This document shows, one piece after another, positions 32,683 to 41,026 of a stretch of 64,000 bases of DNA. Positions within the stretch are counted from its first letter, which is position 1. Each line of letters opens with the position of its first letter. The stretch spans positions 1 through 64,000 of the forward strand of contig JABMJD010000009.1 of assembly GCA_013201395.1 (NCBI GenBank), read 5' to 3'. The position numbers and the translations under genes were made by a program. Below the pieces are notes generated by a model, which saw only the letters and a program-made list of their open reading frames with translations, did not search any database and was not told the origin of the DNA. This stretch comes from Candidatus Syntrophopropionicum ammoniitolerans. Lineage in GTDB: Bacteria; Bacillota; Desulfotomaculia; Desulfotomaculales; Pelotomaculaceae.

Positions 32683-34797
32683 CTAGTCTTGTTCCTTTTT
32701 TTTCTCAAAAAGGTCTCCAACCATGTCGCCTATTGTTACAACATCTGAGGATTCTTGCACCTGGAGGGAAGTATTCTCCCGGAATTCACGCTGCTGTTTA
32801 CCCCGATCCACCTCCCGGATGGAAAGGCGAATGCGTTTTTCGGCGGTGTTAATATTTAAAACCTTAACATTGACCTCTTCCCCTTCGGTAACCACTTCGT
32901 CCGGCTTGGCAATATGACGGTCCGCCAGGTGTGATATATGGACCAATCCCTCTACACCGGGCTCCAGTTGCACAAAAGCACCAAAAGGCGCCAACCGGAC
33001 AACCTTGGCCGTGATAATAGAATCTACCGGATACTTTTCCTCCACCGTATCCCAGGGGTTTGGCAAAACCTGTTTTAGTCCCAGTGATATCTTTTCCTGT
33101 TCCCTGTCAATCCGTAAAACCATAACCTCGATTTCATCATTGACCTTGACTACCTCTGAGGGGTGGTTAATCCGATGCCAGGACATCTCTGAAATGTGCA
33201 AGAGTCCGTCTACACCGCCGATGTCCACAAAGGCGCCAAAATTGGTTAACCGTCGCACAATCCCTTTAACAATCTCATCTTCCTGCAAATTCTCCAAAAC
33301 TTCTTTACGCAGCTGGGCATATTCTTCCTCCAACAGCGCCTTGCGGGAAAGGATTACCTTTTTCCTGCCCCTATTCATTTCTATAACCCTACAGGCAATC
33401 TCCTTTTCGAGATATTTTGTCAGGTCCTCAACATAGCCCCTTTCTACCAGAGAAGCAGGCAAAAAGGCCCTGACCCCTACATCTACAATCAGTCCGCCTT
33501 TAACAACATCCCTGACGAGACCCTCAACGGAAGCTTCTGTTTCCATTGCTTCCTCCAACCCAACCCAGGATTTTTCATTGTCTGCCCTTTCTTTGGAGAG
33601 GATTGGTCTGCCTTCATTGTCTTCAGCTTTTAATACATAGACTTCTATCTCATCCCCAACTTTTACAACATCCTGGGGTGAATTAACATCACGGTTAGAA
33701 AGCTCTCTAATTGGTATGATGCCTTCCGATTTAGCCCCAATATCCACCATCACTTCATCAGGGCTAACATGGACAACCATACCCCTTACAATTTCGCCAG
33801 GACGAACAGCTTTCACCTCAACCGTGTCCTTCATTTCTTCTTCTTGTTCTTCTTGCTCTTCTTGCTCTACTTGTTCTTCTTGTTCTACCTGCTCTTCTTG
33901 TTTTACTTGTTCTTCTTGTCCCTGTTCTTCCTGTTCCTGTTCTTCTTCCTGGCCGTTCAAATCTTCAAATTCGCCCATTCGTCTCCTTACCTCCTCTATA
34001 ATCCAGTCGGGTGTGGATGCCCCCGCTGTCAACCCCGCTCTAGCAACTCCTTGCAACCAAACCGGATCAAGTTCATCCGCTGTTTCAATGAGATGCGTAG
34101 CAGTACCGGACTTGTGGCAAATGGCAGCCAGTTTCCCTGTATTGGCGCTATTCGCACCACCGACTACAATCATCACATCCACATCGCCGGCAAGTTCCCT
34201 AGCAGCTGCCTGCCTTTGGTTTGTAGCATTGCAAATTGTATTATAAATCTTGCAATCAATACCCTTTTTCTTGATAATCTCAATAATTGTGTTAAAATTC
34301 TCCTGCGTCTGAGTTGTTTGGGCTATAATCCCCAATTCAGCTTTACTATCTAAAAAAGCCGCTTCCTCCGGATTCTCTACAACCAGGGCTTTGCCGCCTG
34401 TCCAACCAACAATCCCCTGTACCTCCGGGTGCCCTCTATCACCCACAACCACAACCTGGTAACCTTGCTCCACAAGTTCACCGGCCAACTCCTGTGCTCT
34501 ACGCACATTTGGGCATGTAGCGTCAACAATGTTTATACCCCTTTCCTTGGCTTGATCCAAAACATCAGGACTCACTCCATGGGCTCTAATCACCAGAGTA
34601 CCTTCCTCTATGTTTTGAACACTGTTAACTTCATGTATGCCCTTTTCCGCCAGGGAGGCCACAAGCTGTGGGTTGTGAACTAATGGTCCCAAGGTAAAAA
34701 CAGGACCCTTGTTGTCTTTTAGGGTGTCCATGGCTAGATCTAAAGCCCTCTTTACCCCAGAACAGAAACCGGCCTTAGAAGCCACCTTTATCTCCAT
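32683..34797 (-). CDS. ispH-rpsA: Bifunctional HMBPP reductase (IspH)-ribosomal protein S1 fusion
   Basis: 704 residues. Residues 1 to about 280 are IspH, the last step of the methylerythritol phosphate pathway, with the three cluster cysteines C12 (GFCSGVKRA), C95 (DATCPNVRR) and C189 (NTICNATNQRQ). A Glu/Gln-rich linker of about 40 residues follows. The C-terminal part has four S1 RNA-binding repeats, starting at about residues 330, 405, 500 and 585 (for example VRPGEIVRGMVVHVSP and FGAFVDIGGVDGLLHISEMSW). This fusion is a recognised feature of clostridial lineages. It is the last gene of the aromatic/cmk/plsC run. Confidence 0.96.
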   Translation of the reverse strand: MEIKVASKAGFCSGVKRALDLAMDTLKDNKGPVFTLGPLVHNPQLVASLAEKGIHEVNSVQNIEEGTLVIRAHGVSPDVLDQAKERGINIVDATCPNVRRAQELAGELVEQGYQVVVVGDRGHPEVQGIVGWTGGKALVVENPEEAAFLDSKAELGIIAQTTQTQENFNTIIEIIKKKGIDCKIYNTICNATNQRQAAARELAGDVDVMIVVGGANSANTGKLAAICHKSGTATHLIETADELDPVWLQGVARAGLTAGASTPDWIIEEVRRRMGEFEDLNGQEEEQEQEEQGQEEQVKQEEQVEQEEQVEQEEQEEQEEEMKDTVEVKAVRPGEIVRGMVVHVSPDEVMVDIGAKSEGIIPIRELSNRDVNSPQDVVKVGDEIEVYVLKAEDNEGRPILSKERADNEKSWVGLEEAMETEASVEGLVRDVVKGGLIVDVGVRAFLPASLVERGYVEDLTKYLEKEIACRVIEMNRGRKKVILSRKALLEEEYAQLRKEVLENLQEDEIVKGIVRRLTNFGAFVDIGGVDGLLHISEMSWHRINHPSEVVKVNDEIEVMVLRIDREQEKISLGLKQVLPNPWDTVEEKYPVDSIITAKVVRLAPFGAFVQLEPGVEGLVHISHLADRHIAKPDEVVTEGEEVNVKVLNINTAEKRIRLSIREVDRGKQQREFRENTSLQVQESSDVVTIGDMVGDLFEKKKEQD
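33834..33950 (-). repeat. Low-complexity Glu/Gln codon repeat in the IspH-S1 linker
   Basis: About 117 bp of near-repeating units of GAA/GAG/CAA/CAG encode linker residues about 283-321 (EEQ, QEEQV and EQEE repeats). The reverse strand reads as Ser/Cys-rich ORFs that are artefacts. Repeats of this kind can change length by slippage, so linker length may vary between strains. Confidence 0.8.
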
Positions 34798-37716: not shown

Positions 37717-38823
37717 TTAGAATGCTTTTCTCACGGTATAGCCTCTCTTCCCGAGAACCTGGATCGCACTTTCCTGATCCTGCTCAGTGGCAAACCCGAC
37801 CCGGATTGTACCGCCTTCTCCCTCACGTACCCTGAGGATTTCGATGTCAGTGATATTAATTCCGCCTCCAGCCAAACAGGTTGTAAAACCGGCAATAATG
37901 CCCGGCCGATCCGGGACAGTTAGTATGATATCAAAAATTACCGGTAGATAGTCTTTAACATTTCCCTGTAAGGTAACGCGCACGGCCCTGGCAGCCGCCA
38001 ATTTGGAGAAAATTGTCTCCATATTTCCCTCCTGCAACAGCCCTGTGAAAAGAGTAAGTTCATCCCTAAAATCGCTAATCATTTTGAGGATTTGTCGGCA
38101 ATTTGTATAAAAAATATCCCTCCACATGGCCGGACAACCGGCGGCTATCCGGGTGGTGTCCCGGAAGCCACCGGCAGCAAGGGGTAAAATAGATTCACTT
38201 TCCGGCAGGCTCACCACAGTATTAACCAGGGAGGCCGCCAACAGATGAGGCAGGTGACTGACGGCGGCCACGGCCAGATCATGCTTTTCCGGTTTAATCT
38301 CGACCACCTTTGCACCGATCCCCGCAACCAGTCTTTTGACCTTTTTTAGCGCCACTGGTTTACTATTGGTTGTGGGGGTAATTAGATAAAAAGCATTTTC
38401 AAATAAATAGGGATCGGCTCCCTTAATCCCATTATGCTCGGAACCGGCCATGGGGTGGCCGCCTACAAAACTAATCCCGGGAGGCAGCAGATTCTCCGCC
38501 TCCTGCACCACCTTAGTCTTGGTACTCCCAACATCGGTAACTACCGCCCCCGAAGCTAGATGGGGCCATATTTCATGCAGTATCGGAATTGTGGCCCCCA
38601 CCGGTGTAGCAATAATAACCAGATCTGCCCCGGCTACCCCTGCGGCAGGAGAAGCTGTATATCGATCTACTGCACCCAACTCTACTGCCAGATGCAAATT
38701 ATCCACACAGGAATCCACCCCAACTACCTCATTTACCAGCTTACTCCTGCGCAGGGACATGCCGAGGGAACCGCCGATAAGACCAACACCTATGATGGTC
38801 ACCCGGTTAAAATCAGGATTCAA
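37717..38823 (-). CDS. tyrA: Prephenate dehydrogenase with C-terminal ACT domain
   Basis: NAD-dependent oxidative decarboxylation of prephenate to 4-hydroxyphenylpyruvate for tyrosine. 368 residues, TTG start overlapping the aroF stop by 4 nt, RBS GGGGAGG upstream. Rossmann motif VTIIGVGLIGGSLGMSLRRS; FVGGHPMAGSEHNG; an ACT domain from about residue 295 (ILTVPDRPGIIAGFTTCLA), giving probable tyrosine feedback inhibition. Confidence 0.95.
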   Translation of the reverse strand: MNPDFNRVTIIGVGLIGGSLGMSLRRSKLVNEVVGVDSCVDNLHLAVELGAVDRYTASPAAGVAGADLVIIATPVGATIPILHEIWPHLASGAVVTDVGSTKTKVVQEAENLLPPGISFVGGHPMAGSEHNGIKGADPYLFENAFYLITPTTNSKPVALKKVKRLVAGIGAKVVEIKPEKHDLAVAAVSHLPHLLAASLVNTVVSLPESESILPLAAGGFRDTTRIAAGCPAMWRDIFYTNCRQILKMISDFRDELTLFTGLLQEGNMETIFSKLAAARAVRVTLQGNVKDYLPVIFDIILTVPDRPGIIAGFTTCLAGGGINITDIEILRVREGEGGTIRVGFATEQDQESAIQVLGKRGYTVRKAF

Positions 38824-39842
38824 GGCATTTTCCTCCCCATAAAACCGGCGATTTTTTTCAAATCATCCATCATCAATTTAAAACCCTTTGGGGTAAGAGA
38901 TTGCTGTCCATCACAAAGGGCTTCCTCCGGATGAGGATGCATTTCCACAATTAGCCCGTCCGCGCCGGCAGCAATGGCCGCCCGGGCCATGGGCGGCACA
39001 AAACGCCATTTACCGATAGCGTGGCTGGGATCAACGATTACCGGCAGGTGCGATAGATGCTTGACCACCGGTACCGCGGTTAGATCCAGAGTATTCCTGG
39101 TATAGTTCTCAAAACTGCGGATGCCCCGCTCACATAGGATCACCTTATAGTTACCGCCGGACATAATGTATTCAGCCGCCATCAACCATTCTTCTATTGT
39201 GCAGGACGGCCCCCTTTTTAAGACAACTGGCTTATCAATCCCCGCTACCTCACGCAAGAGATAGTAATTTTGCATATTGCGGGCACCTATCTGTAAGATG
39301 TCAGCATAATGGGCCACCAGGGGTACATCACGCACATCCATCACCTCTGTGACAATTAAAAGGCCTGTTTCCTCACGCGCTTCTGCTAGAAACTCCAATC
39401 CCTCCTCCGCCAAACCCTGGAAGGAATAAGGGGAGGTTCTAGGTTTAAAGGCCCCACCCCGTAAAATTGCCCCACCGGCATCGCGGACGGACCTGGCGGC
39501 CTGTATCAGCTGCTCTTTGCTTTCTACGGCACAAGGGCCGGCCATAACATGGAGTGTGTCACCACCAATTTCCAGGCCGCCAACCTTAATTATGGTATTA
39601 TCCTCCTGGAAAGTCCGACTGGCCAGCTTATAAGGATGCAGGATAGGTACCACTTTTTCCACACCAGGCATAGATTCCAGATTCACATCACACAAAATAT
39701 TTCTATCCCCAACGGCCCCGATTATAGTACGTTCTATCCCGTGGGAAAGGTGGGTCTGAAATCCAATTTTCCGAAGACGTTCCAAAACCTGTTCTATTTC
39801 ACCATCACCGGCGTGATGATCCATAACCACTATCACATTCAT
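38820..39842 (-). CDS. aroF: 3-deoxy-7-phosphoheptulonate synthase (DAHP synthase)
   Basis: First shikimate pathway step. The true start is the ATG of MNVIVVMDHHAGDGEIEQ with AGGGAGGG just upstream; the 31 codons before it cover the leader terminator. 340 residues: an N-terminal ferredoxin-like regulatory domain (about 70 residues), then the type I DAHP barrel with VMAGPCAVESKEQL, RGGAFKPRTSPYSFQG and the late IVDPSHAIGKW. First gene after the attenuator-like leader; leads tyrA-aroA and onward. Confidence 0.95.
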   Translation of the reverse strand: MNVIVVMDHHAGDGEIEQVLERLRKIGFQTHLSHGIERTIIGAVGDRNILCDVNLESMPGVEKVVPILHPYKLASRTFQEDNTIIKVGGLEIGGDTLHVMAGPCAVESKEQLIQAARSVRDAGGAILRGGAFKPRTSPYSFQGLAEEGLEFLAEAREETGLLIVTEVMDVRDVPLVAHYADILQIGARNMQNYYLLREVAGIDKPVVLKRGPSCTIEEWLMAAEYIMSGGNYKVILCERGIRSFENYTRNTLDLTAVPVVKHLSHLPVIVDPSHAIGKWRFVPPMARAAIAAGADGLIVEMHPHPEEALCDGQQSLTPKGFKLMMDDLKKIAGFMGRKMP

Positions 39843-39892: not shown

Positions 39893-39917
39893 CAAAAAAA
39901 CACCCCTGAGGAGTGCT
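39893..39917 (-). terminator. Terminator at the end of the aroF leader
   Basis: On the minus strand AGCACTCC-TCA-GGGGTGTT forms eight pairs including two G-U wobbles, followed by a run of T. The pairs that need G-U exist only in minus-strand RNA, so it is directional. It lies about 50 bp before the aroF ATG and makes the leader a candidate attenuator. Confidence 0.8.
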
Positions 39918-39956
39918 AAATAAGATCACAGGCACATAATCATAATTATCGCCCCC

Positions 39957-40102
39957 CTACCATGCTGCCGTTCTTCAACTGTTTTGTCCTACCTGGTAAT
40001 GCAGGACCTTTTCCCAGGCCCGGCGTCCATCCTACCATACTAACCGTACAATCCCTTGTGCTGCAGCCCCTCCGGGCCGGCAGCACAGCTACCATCTACC
40101 AT
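39957..40102 (-). promoter_or_regulatory. Four ATGGTAG repeats (NAG-triplet motif) in the aroF leader
   Basis: Exact copies at 39957-39963, 40032-40038, 40089-40095 and 40096-40102. The last two are directly tandem, giving UAG-N4-UAG; other copies have UAG-N5-UAG and CAG-N5-UAG spacing. HutP of Bacillus subtilis is known to bind NAG triplets separated by 4 nt. One copy abuts the 3' arm and two abut the 5' arm of the alternative long-range helix. Confidence 0.65.
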
Positions 40103-40111
40103 AGTTTTTTT

Positions 40112-40141
40112 ATTTTAGCATACCCCGCCGCCCACTGGCAA
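40112..40141 (-). promoter_or_regulatory. Promoter of the aroF leader
   Basis: On the minus strand TTGCCA (40136-40141), 18-bp spacer, TAAAAT (40112-40117), with a TG one base before the -10 (extended -10). It lies just after the aroH stop and feeds the leader RNA. Confidence 0.7.
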
Positions 40142-40153
40142 TGGACAGCTGCC

Positions 40154-40522
40154 CTATTTGATGTCTTCCCGCAAGCAGGCAGCCTTTTTTAGGTAAATAT
40201 GTTTTATTTCTCTTTGTGACTTGTCAGTGTTAATATGGATCAATATCCTGATACATCTGGGGAGGCTGCCGGGAACATCCAATTCCCGGGCATCAAGAAG
40301 CGGCACATATTTCAAACCTCTATCCCGGGCCGCCCGGGCTGGAAAACAGGCATCCAGGTCCTCCGTCATGGTAAAAATAATGCTGGCCATGTCACCAGCC
40401 TCAATATCGTTTTCCTTAATTATAGTATCCAATAGTTCCCCAGTGGCGGCCAGGATTTCTTCCGCCGAATTCCGTTCCACCGTAATGGCGCCGCGGATCC
40501 CTCTAAGAACTGTTTCACCCAA
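40154..40522 (-). CDS. aroH: Chorismate mutase, AroH type
   Basis: Converts chorismate to prephenate, the branch to Phe and Tyr. The TTG at 40522 (read as Met, then GETVLRGIRGAITVERN) is preceded seven bases upstream by GGGAGGA; a TTG five codons earlier lies inside that RBS. About 122 residues; the GIRGAITVERNSAEEILAAT opening and DLDACFPARAARD motif are typical of the monofunctional trimeric enzyme. Ends 12 bp before the aroF-leader promoter region; follows the hutP-like gene. Confidence 0.93.
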   Translation of the reverse strand: MGETVLRGIRGAITVERNSAEEILAATGELLDTIIKENDIEAGDMASIIFTMTEDLDACFPARAARDRGLKYVPLLDARELDVPGSLPRCIRILIHINTDKSQREIKHIYLKKAACLREDIK

Positions 40523-40603
40523 ACTGCTTCCTCCCAATGCATAATTGAAACCAAAAGGCTAAAAGGCAAAGCCGCAGCCCATGGAGCGGTTCCCATCATG
40601 TTA

Positions 40604-41026
40604 TCAACCGGACTGAACAGCCCTATGGCCCAACCCAATCGCTACCTCATCCAAATGTAATAATCCTACACCAAAAAAAATTGCTACACTGATATGATCC
40701 TCTTTCCGGGCGATACCTATTTTACCGCCAACATTAAAACCCAGGGCTTTTAACATTATTTGTGATAAGGCTTCCCTTGTTGCTCCGGCCACGGCTCCCT
40801 CGTCGGCATGCTGCTCTTTGATAACACCTTCCCTCTTTGAGGCCACCACAGCACGCTCAATGATTCTATTAACAGACGAAATAAAGTCACCGCCGTAATC
40901 TACCGCCGCTGTCCTAAAACCTTCTCTAGCAAAACGCTGTTTATACTCCCTCTCTTGTTCCCTACTGCTGGTCAGGGCCATCTCTATAGCTACGCTTGCC
41001 GTTCTGCGGCTGCCATATAGTGTCAT
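40604..41026 (-). CDS. hutP: HutP-family RNA-binding antiterminator-like protein
   Basis: 140 residues. HutP in Bacillus is a hexameric, Mg- and L-histidine-dependent RNA-binding protein that prevents termination in the hut operon. Family-like segments here: REGFRTAAVDYGGDFISSVNRIIERAVVA in short pieces, KEQHADEGAVAGATREALSQI (contains the His-Glu metal/ligand region) and DHISVAIFFGVGLLHLDEVAIGLGHRAV. No hut genes are present; instead aroH and aroF follow. It may respond to a different ligand, such as an aromatic amino acid, but this is inference. Own promoter at 41088-41116. Confidence 0.75.
   Translation of the reverse strand: MTLYGSRRTASVAIEMALTSSREQEREYKQRFAREGFRTAAVDYGGDFISSVNRIIERAVVASKREGVIKEQHADEGAVAGATREALSQIMLKALGFNVGGKIGIARKEDHISVAIFFGVGLLHLDEVAIGLGHRAVQSG

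Follow-up and report, generated by a model that had tools for sequence, protein, structure and literature searches.

What might explain why a HutP-like gene lies two genes upstream of aroF in Candidatus Syntrophopropionicum ammoniitolerans, when HutP is the histidine antiterminator of Bacillus-type hut operons (PMC7430163)? In the window, the whole 64,000-nucleotide stretch of DNA that was analysed, the gene order on the minus strand is HutP-like gene, aroH-type chorismate mutase, leader, aroF and tyrA, the leader being placed between the chorismate mutase gene and aroF. In the direction of transcription, the features of the locus are:

40604-41026, minus strand: HutP-like gene (140 aa; PF09021, 170 bits), the proposed regulator
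40154-40537, minus strand: chorismate mutase, aroH-type (PF07736), separating the HutP-like gene from the leader
40112-40141, minus strand: sigma-70-type promoter with extended -10 (TG), TTGCCA-18-TAAAAT, 10/12 consensus matches
40089-40102, minus strand: tandem ATGGTAGATGGTAG (UAG-N4-UAG), window-specific and absent from relatives' leaders
40024-40042, minus strand: cluster I, UAG-UAUGG-UAG-GAUGG-ACG, a degenerate first NAG array with one mismatch to the array pattern
39957-39975, minus strand: cluster II, AAG-AACGG-CAG-CAUGG-UAG, the conserved triple-NAG array and proposed HutP-like site, an exact pattern match
39951-39956, minus strand: GGGGGG, 5' strand of the proposed antiterminator, pairing with CUCCUC at 39913-39908
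39893-39917, minus strand: intrinsic terminator and T-run, its 5' arm containing CUCCUC (39913-39908), the antiterminator partner
38820-39842, minus strand: aroF, DAHP synthase I-beta (PF00793 and PF18152), the proposed regulated gene

The aroF leader transcript would start near 40104. Promoter (40141-40112) and terminator (39917-39899) lie where a preliminary description of this DNA had placed them, and the four copies of ATGGTAG that it reported are present on the minus strand (39957-39963, 40032-40038, 40089-40095 and 40096-40102). The window holds eight copies of ATGGTAG in total against 8.4 by chance; four within 146 nt on one strand form a cluster that chance would produce about 1e-6 times per window. 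Elsewhere in the window (32683-34797, minus strand), a 704-aa ORF, judged by eye from its translation, appears to carry an IspH-type N-terminus and repeats like those of ribosomal protein S1, with a low-complexity EEQEEQ linker between the two.

Which part of the leader is conserved? The HutP gene is present in 23 of the 25 genomes of the window's family, where aroF or trpE comes after it, often separated from it by aroH or a DedA-like gene (trpE and DedA were identified by eye). In the alignment of the family's aroF leaders, the 5' half is variable and the 3' half, consisting of an array of NAG triplets, a G-run, the hairpin GGCGAUAAG...CUUAUGGUC and the terminator, is strongly conserved. The conserved element is NAG-NAYGG-NAG-NAYGG-NAG, with constant 5-nt spacers, and after it comes a G-run whose complement lies in the 5' arm of the terminator. 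In the window leader, cluster II is complete and is covered by the covariance model match (39893-39980, 75.7 bits), and cluster I is degenerate, resembling the AGTAYGGYAGGAYGG carried by sister leaders. The UAG-N4-UAG tandem, which had been put forward as the binding site, is not the conserved unit, whose spacers are of 5 nt. A covariance-model search, one of the checks that had been proposed, found the element in 79 of the 113 genomes of the order, with most strong matches directly upstream of aroF; outside the family the hairpin fades and the array, G-run and terminator persist. There are 79 distinct aroF leaders with the array, followed by a terminator in 78, and within the order the exact pattern AGNAYGGNAGNAYGGNAGG matches about 75 times, its reversed version about 5 times. 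Judged from this sequence comparison, the aroF leader array is a genuine RNA regulatory element with wide conservation. The suggestion that the leader belongs to no described RNA form is supported as far as Rfam goes: its covariance models gave nothing at gathering scores and a chance-level match only (E 4.7), and a T-box or known Rfam leader was rejected on this ground. A general second cluster was not upheld, as upstream units numbered 18 versus 10 in the control, a weak excess; downstream units, mostly near the aroF start, did better (13 versus 1). Syntrophomonas-type aroF leaders (L243, L251, L258, L279) carry the array with a different terminator arm (CCAUUGG), and there the AUGGU of the array can pair with ACCAU, apparently an independent antiterminator solution.

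The HutP-like protein matches the PF09021 profile at 170 bits, against a curated cut-off of 25. Sequence searches of the PDB with the window protein did not recover HutP; a fold search with its AlphaFold2 model (pLDDT 91.6) did, the ten best PDB matches (TM 0.71-0.79) all being HutP, including the RNA-bound form, and the protein presumably forms a HutP-type hexamer. Across 19 diverse members, five residues do not vary: H73, H111, H124, D126 and H134 (window numbering). However, the B. subtilis HutP metal ligands H73 and H77, at the L-histidine site, align to glycine in 27/27 members when the B. subtilis sequence, checked against the PDB, is used for the alignment. Because these metal ligands are replaced, the ligand of the HutP-like protein is likely to differ from that of B. 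subtilis HutP. PF09021 occurs in 257 of 399 sampled Bacillota genomes; our literature search, with most subscription journals outside its coverage, found no description of HutP-like proteins outside hut and no account of the role of PF09021 in anaerobic Bacillota.

Does the array follow the protein? In the order, the HutP gene and the element are either both there or both missing in 103 of 113 genomes (both in 74, neither in 29), and five genomes are discordant in each direction, a sub-threshold 21-bit match in G096 being scored absent. By genus, 35 have both, 15 neither, three HutP only and two the element only (p 8e-9), so that the element is found in 35/38 HutP-positive versus 2/17 HutP-negative genera. 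Across the phylum (399 genomes, presence lists compared by hand) the strict pattern occurs in 84/257 HutP-positive genomes, only a third of them, versus 8/142 HutP-negative genomes (p 7e-11), and the reversed-pattern control in 19/257 versus 4/142 (p 0.07). All of these tests count genomes and genera as independent, ignoring phylogeny. Near 80 named HutP loci, from organisms that include Pelotomaculum sp., Desulfofundulus thermosubterraneus and Desulfotruncus arcticus, all 18 arrays precede aroF (16) or hutP (2); the reversed control gave two. The co-occurrence of array and gene, a comparison that the preliminary description had called for, supports its proposal that the nearby HutP-like protein would control aroF through NAG triplets, probably in connection with an aromatic amino acid. 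Five HutP-positive genomes of the order have no model match. Of the five genomes with the element only, G015 and G018 are incomplete genomes from genera that do carry HutP, and the model match in G096 is only a weak one; genus g25 (G053, G054), which keeps arrays without a detectable HutP, is a true exception. Its arrays precede aroF, a LivK-type gene and a symporter (L129 in G054; L091 and L135 in G053). A divergent HutP missed in G053, G054, G095 and G096 was ruled out as the cause of these exceptions, since a profile search at E 10 found none, and in g25 another protein may therefore read the arrays.

The array is not confined to aroF. It also precedes DctP-type transporters (one of them, L076, in the genome that the window comes from), LivK-type transporters and a sodium:solute symporter whose gene is itself downstream of one for an aminotransferase. 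Further targets are tyrA, an OYE-family gene, a PaaK-like phenylacetate-CoA ligase, a tyrosine phenol-lyase/tryptophanase-like gene and a gene with distant similarity to beta-RFAP synthase. Where it precedes the symporter, and likewise an acyl-CoA ligase of the window's own genome, the array shares bases with the ribosome-binding site or start codon. With up to one mismatch allowed, this genome has eight array matches and the control a single one; both aroF leader arrays are among the eight, and some others are intragenic and chance-like. A lactate-permease-family gene has array-like repeats at its start both in the same genome (G000:C86, L087) and in a distant one (L171). Directly upstream of the hutP-like gene itself, arrays are found at L276:9849 and L278:9844, and this adjacency suggests autoregulation.

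How could such an array act? The explanation that we consider likely is that the aroF leader is an attenuator, in which the HutP-like protein binds the 5-nt-spaced NAG triplets, frees the terminator and represses aroF. The protein encoded two genes upstream would recognise NAG triplets in groups of three; the antiterminator strand would consist of the final triplet and the G-run behind it, pairing with the 5' arm of the aroF terminator, as GGGGGG (39956-39951) can with CUCCUC in the window, and protein on the array would release the terminator and turn aroF off. At targets where the array lies over the ribosome-binding site, the protein would instead block translation. The array end and next bases pair with the terminator 5' arm and loop at a mean of -10.3 kcal/mol; the value is -7.0 when the arms are shuffled and -9.7 when leaders are swapped (permutation p ~0.007), so that the covariation signal of the swap test is modest. 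Direct binding by the HutP-like protein and repression as the regulatory sign are what we infer from this arrangement: an array that abuts or forms the antiterminator strand should favour termination when bound, and one over a ribosome-binding site should block translation. Repression would make sense for a biosynthetic gene and uptake systems under end-product control; the catabolic-looking targets (tyrosine phenol-lyase-like, PaaK) fit simple end-product repression less well. Our guess for the effector is an end product of the aromatic pathway; Phe or Tyr seems likeliest, since TRAP is there as well and its known ligand is Trp.

It is rather unlikely that the HutP-like protein binds the arrays and activates, as in hut, by disrupting the terminator or stabilising the antiterminator. 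The co-occurrence would serve this reading equally, the known HutP is an antiterminator (PMC7430163), and catabolic-looking targets would suit it. Yet the aroF-leader array is on the antiterminator side, outside the terminator stem, and elsewhere arrays cover ribosome-binding sites, where binding should block; the HutP-style antitermination implied by the preliminary description thus gives way to repression.

Quite unlikely, too, is that TRAP (MtrB) or some protein other than HutP binds the arrays. TRAP binds NAG-type triplets and is found in 105 of the 113 genomes of the order, and the arrays persist in HutP-less g25. However, TRAP is present in array-less genomes as well, including every one of the HutP-less, array-less families f2, f8 and f16, and therefore it is not the explanation for where the array occurs. 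TRAP sites have about 11 repeats spaced 2-3 nt (PMC7430163), unlike these arrays of three triplets with 5-nt spacers, and separate TRAP-like leaders already sit before trpE in relatives. On distribution and spacing, TRAP was rejected as the binder. G/UAG-rich leaders of relatives, lying between the HutP-like gene and trpE, are as expected for TRAP sites; leaders before trpE-like genes or aroF with many close G/UAG triplets and a terminator were seen at L003, L014, L018, L020, L021 and L016, the last with an apparent trpE remnant upstream of aroF.

A metabolite-sensing riboswitch that needs no protein is very improbable. The leader is conserved and has a terminator, and in the family the pairs of the hairpin and terminator are kept in 92% of cells, a higher share than in shuffles or slid controls, in an alignment that was itself fitted to the structure. 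The hairpin is, however, family-specific, the short array stands at ribosome-binding sites without any conserved structure, and a riboswitch would not track a protein gene. Leader-peptide attenuation was excluded because the 8-nt period puts the triplets in all three frames; ORFs with Shine-Dalgarno sites occur in 43 of the 79 leaders, a count that says little because the arrays themselves look like such sites. The mutually exclusive long-range helices that had been proposed as the core are genuine complementarities in the window, where TGTGCTGCCG (40087-40078) can pair with GCAGCACA (40064-40057) or, alternatively, CGGCAGCAT (39968-39960), and GGCCCGG (40078-40072) with CCGGGCC (40023-40017). 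That they form a regulatory core is scarcely credible and was dropped, for although the window's long-range helix is strong (-22.7 versus -13.9 +/- 2.5 kcal/mol for shuffles), relatives' leaders generally form none stronger than shuffles and the 5' half of the leader cannot be aligned among them.

The predicted repression by a HutP-like protein is reminiscent of two known systems. With B. subtilis HutP it shares the protein family and fold, terminator-based control and sites made of three NAG triplets (PMC7430163), of which the window leader has two clusters. Unlike hut, its targets are aroF and other aromatic or transport genes, none of them hut, and it is predicted to repress rather than antiterminate. 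The B. subtilis HutP-type spacer is 4 nt, not the 5 nt of the conserved arrays. With TRAP and trp attenuation it shares NAG-like arrays that abut or form the antiterminator or lie over ribosome-binding sites, and the predicted outcomes of termination and translation block, although the protein is another one. The uORFC-13-1 motif of Acholeplasma, a phenylalanine uORF attenuator, is likewise a leader with a terminator upstream of aroF, but its description mentions no NAG array (PMC8632094).

The HutP family is common in anaerobic Bacillota as PF09021, and it now has a predicted RNA site, regulon and regulatory sign. Because the array precedes related genes across many HutP-bearing Bacillota, this little-studied HutP-like family probably acts as an RNA-level switch for the synthesis and uptake of aromatic amino acids. 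The arrangement described here appears to be a NAG-cluster system of the HutP family whose targets and spacing are new and whose predicted logic is TRAP-like rather than hut-like, probably with a new ligand. We give roughly even chances to the broader proposal that there is, among the HutP-like proteins of Bacillota, a general repressor that works post-transcriptionally on the synthesis, uptake and breakdown of aromatic amino acids. It would sense a non-tryptophan aromatic metabolite and act both at attenuators and at ribosome-binding sites, as a Phe/Tyr counterpart to TRAP with the HutP fold. The findings suggest a second NAG-binding protein beside TRAP, with control of the aromatic amino acids shared out between them, and a case of a protein family that has changed its ligand and regulatory sign and retained its RNA code.
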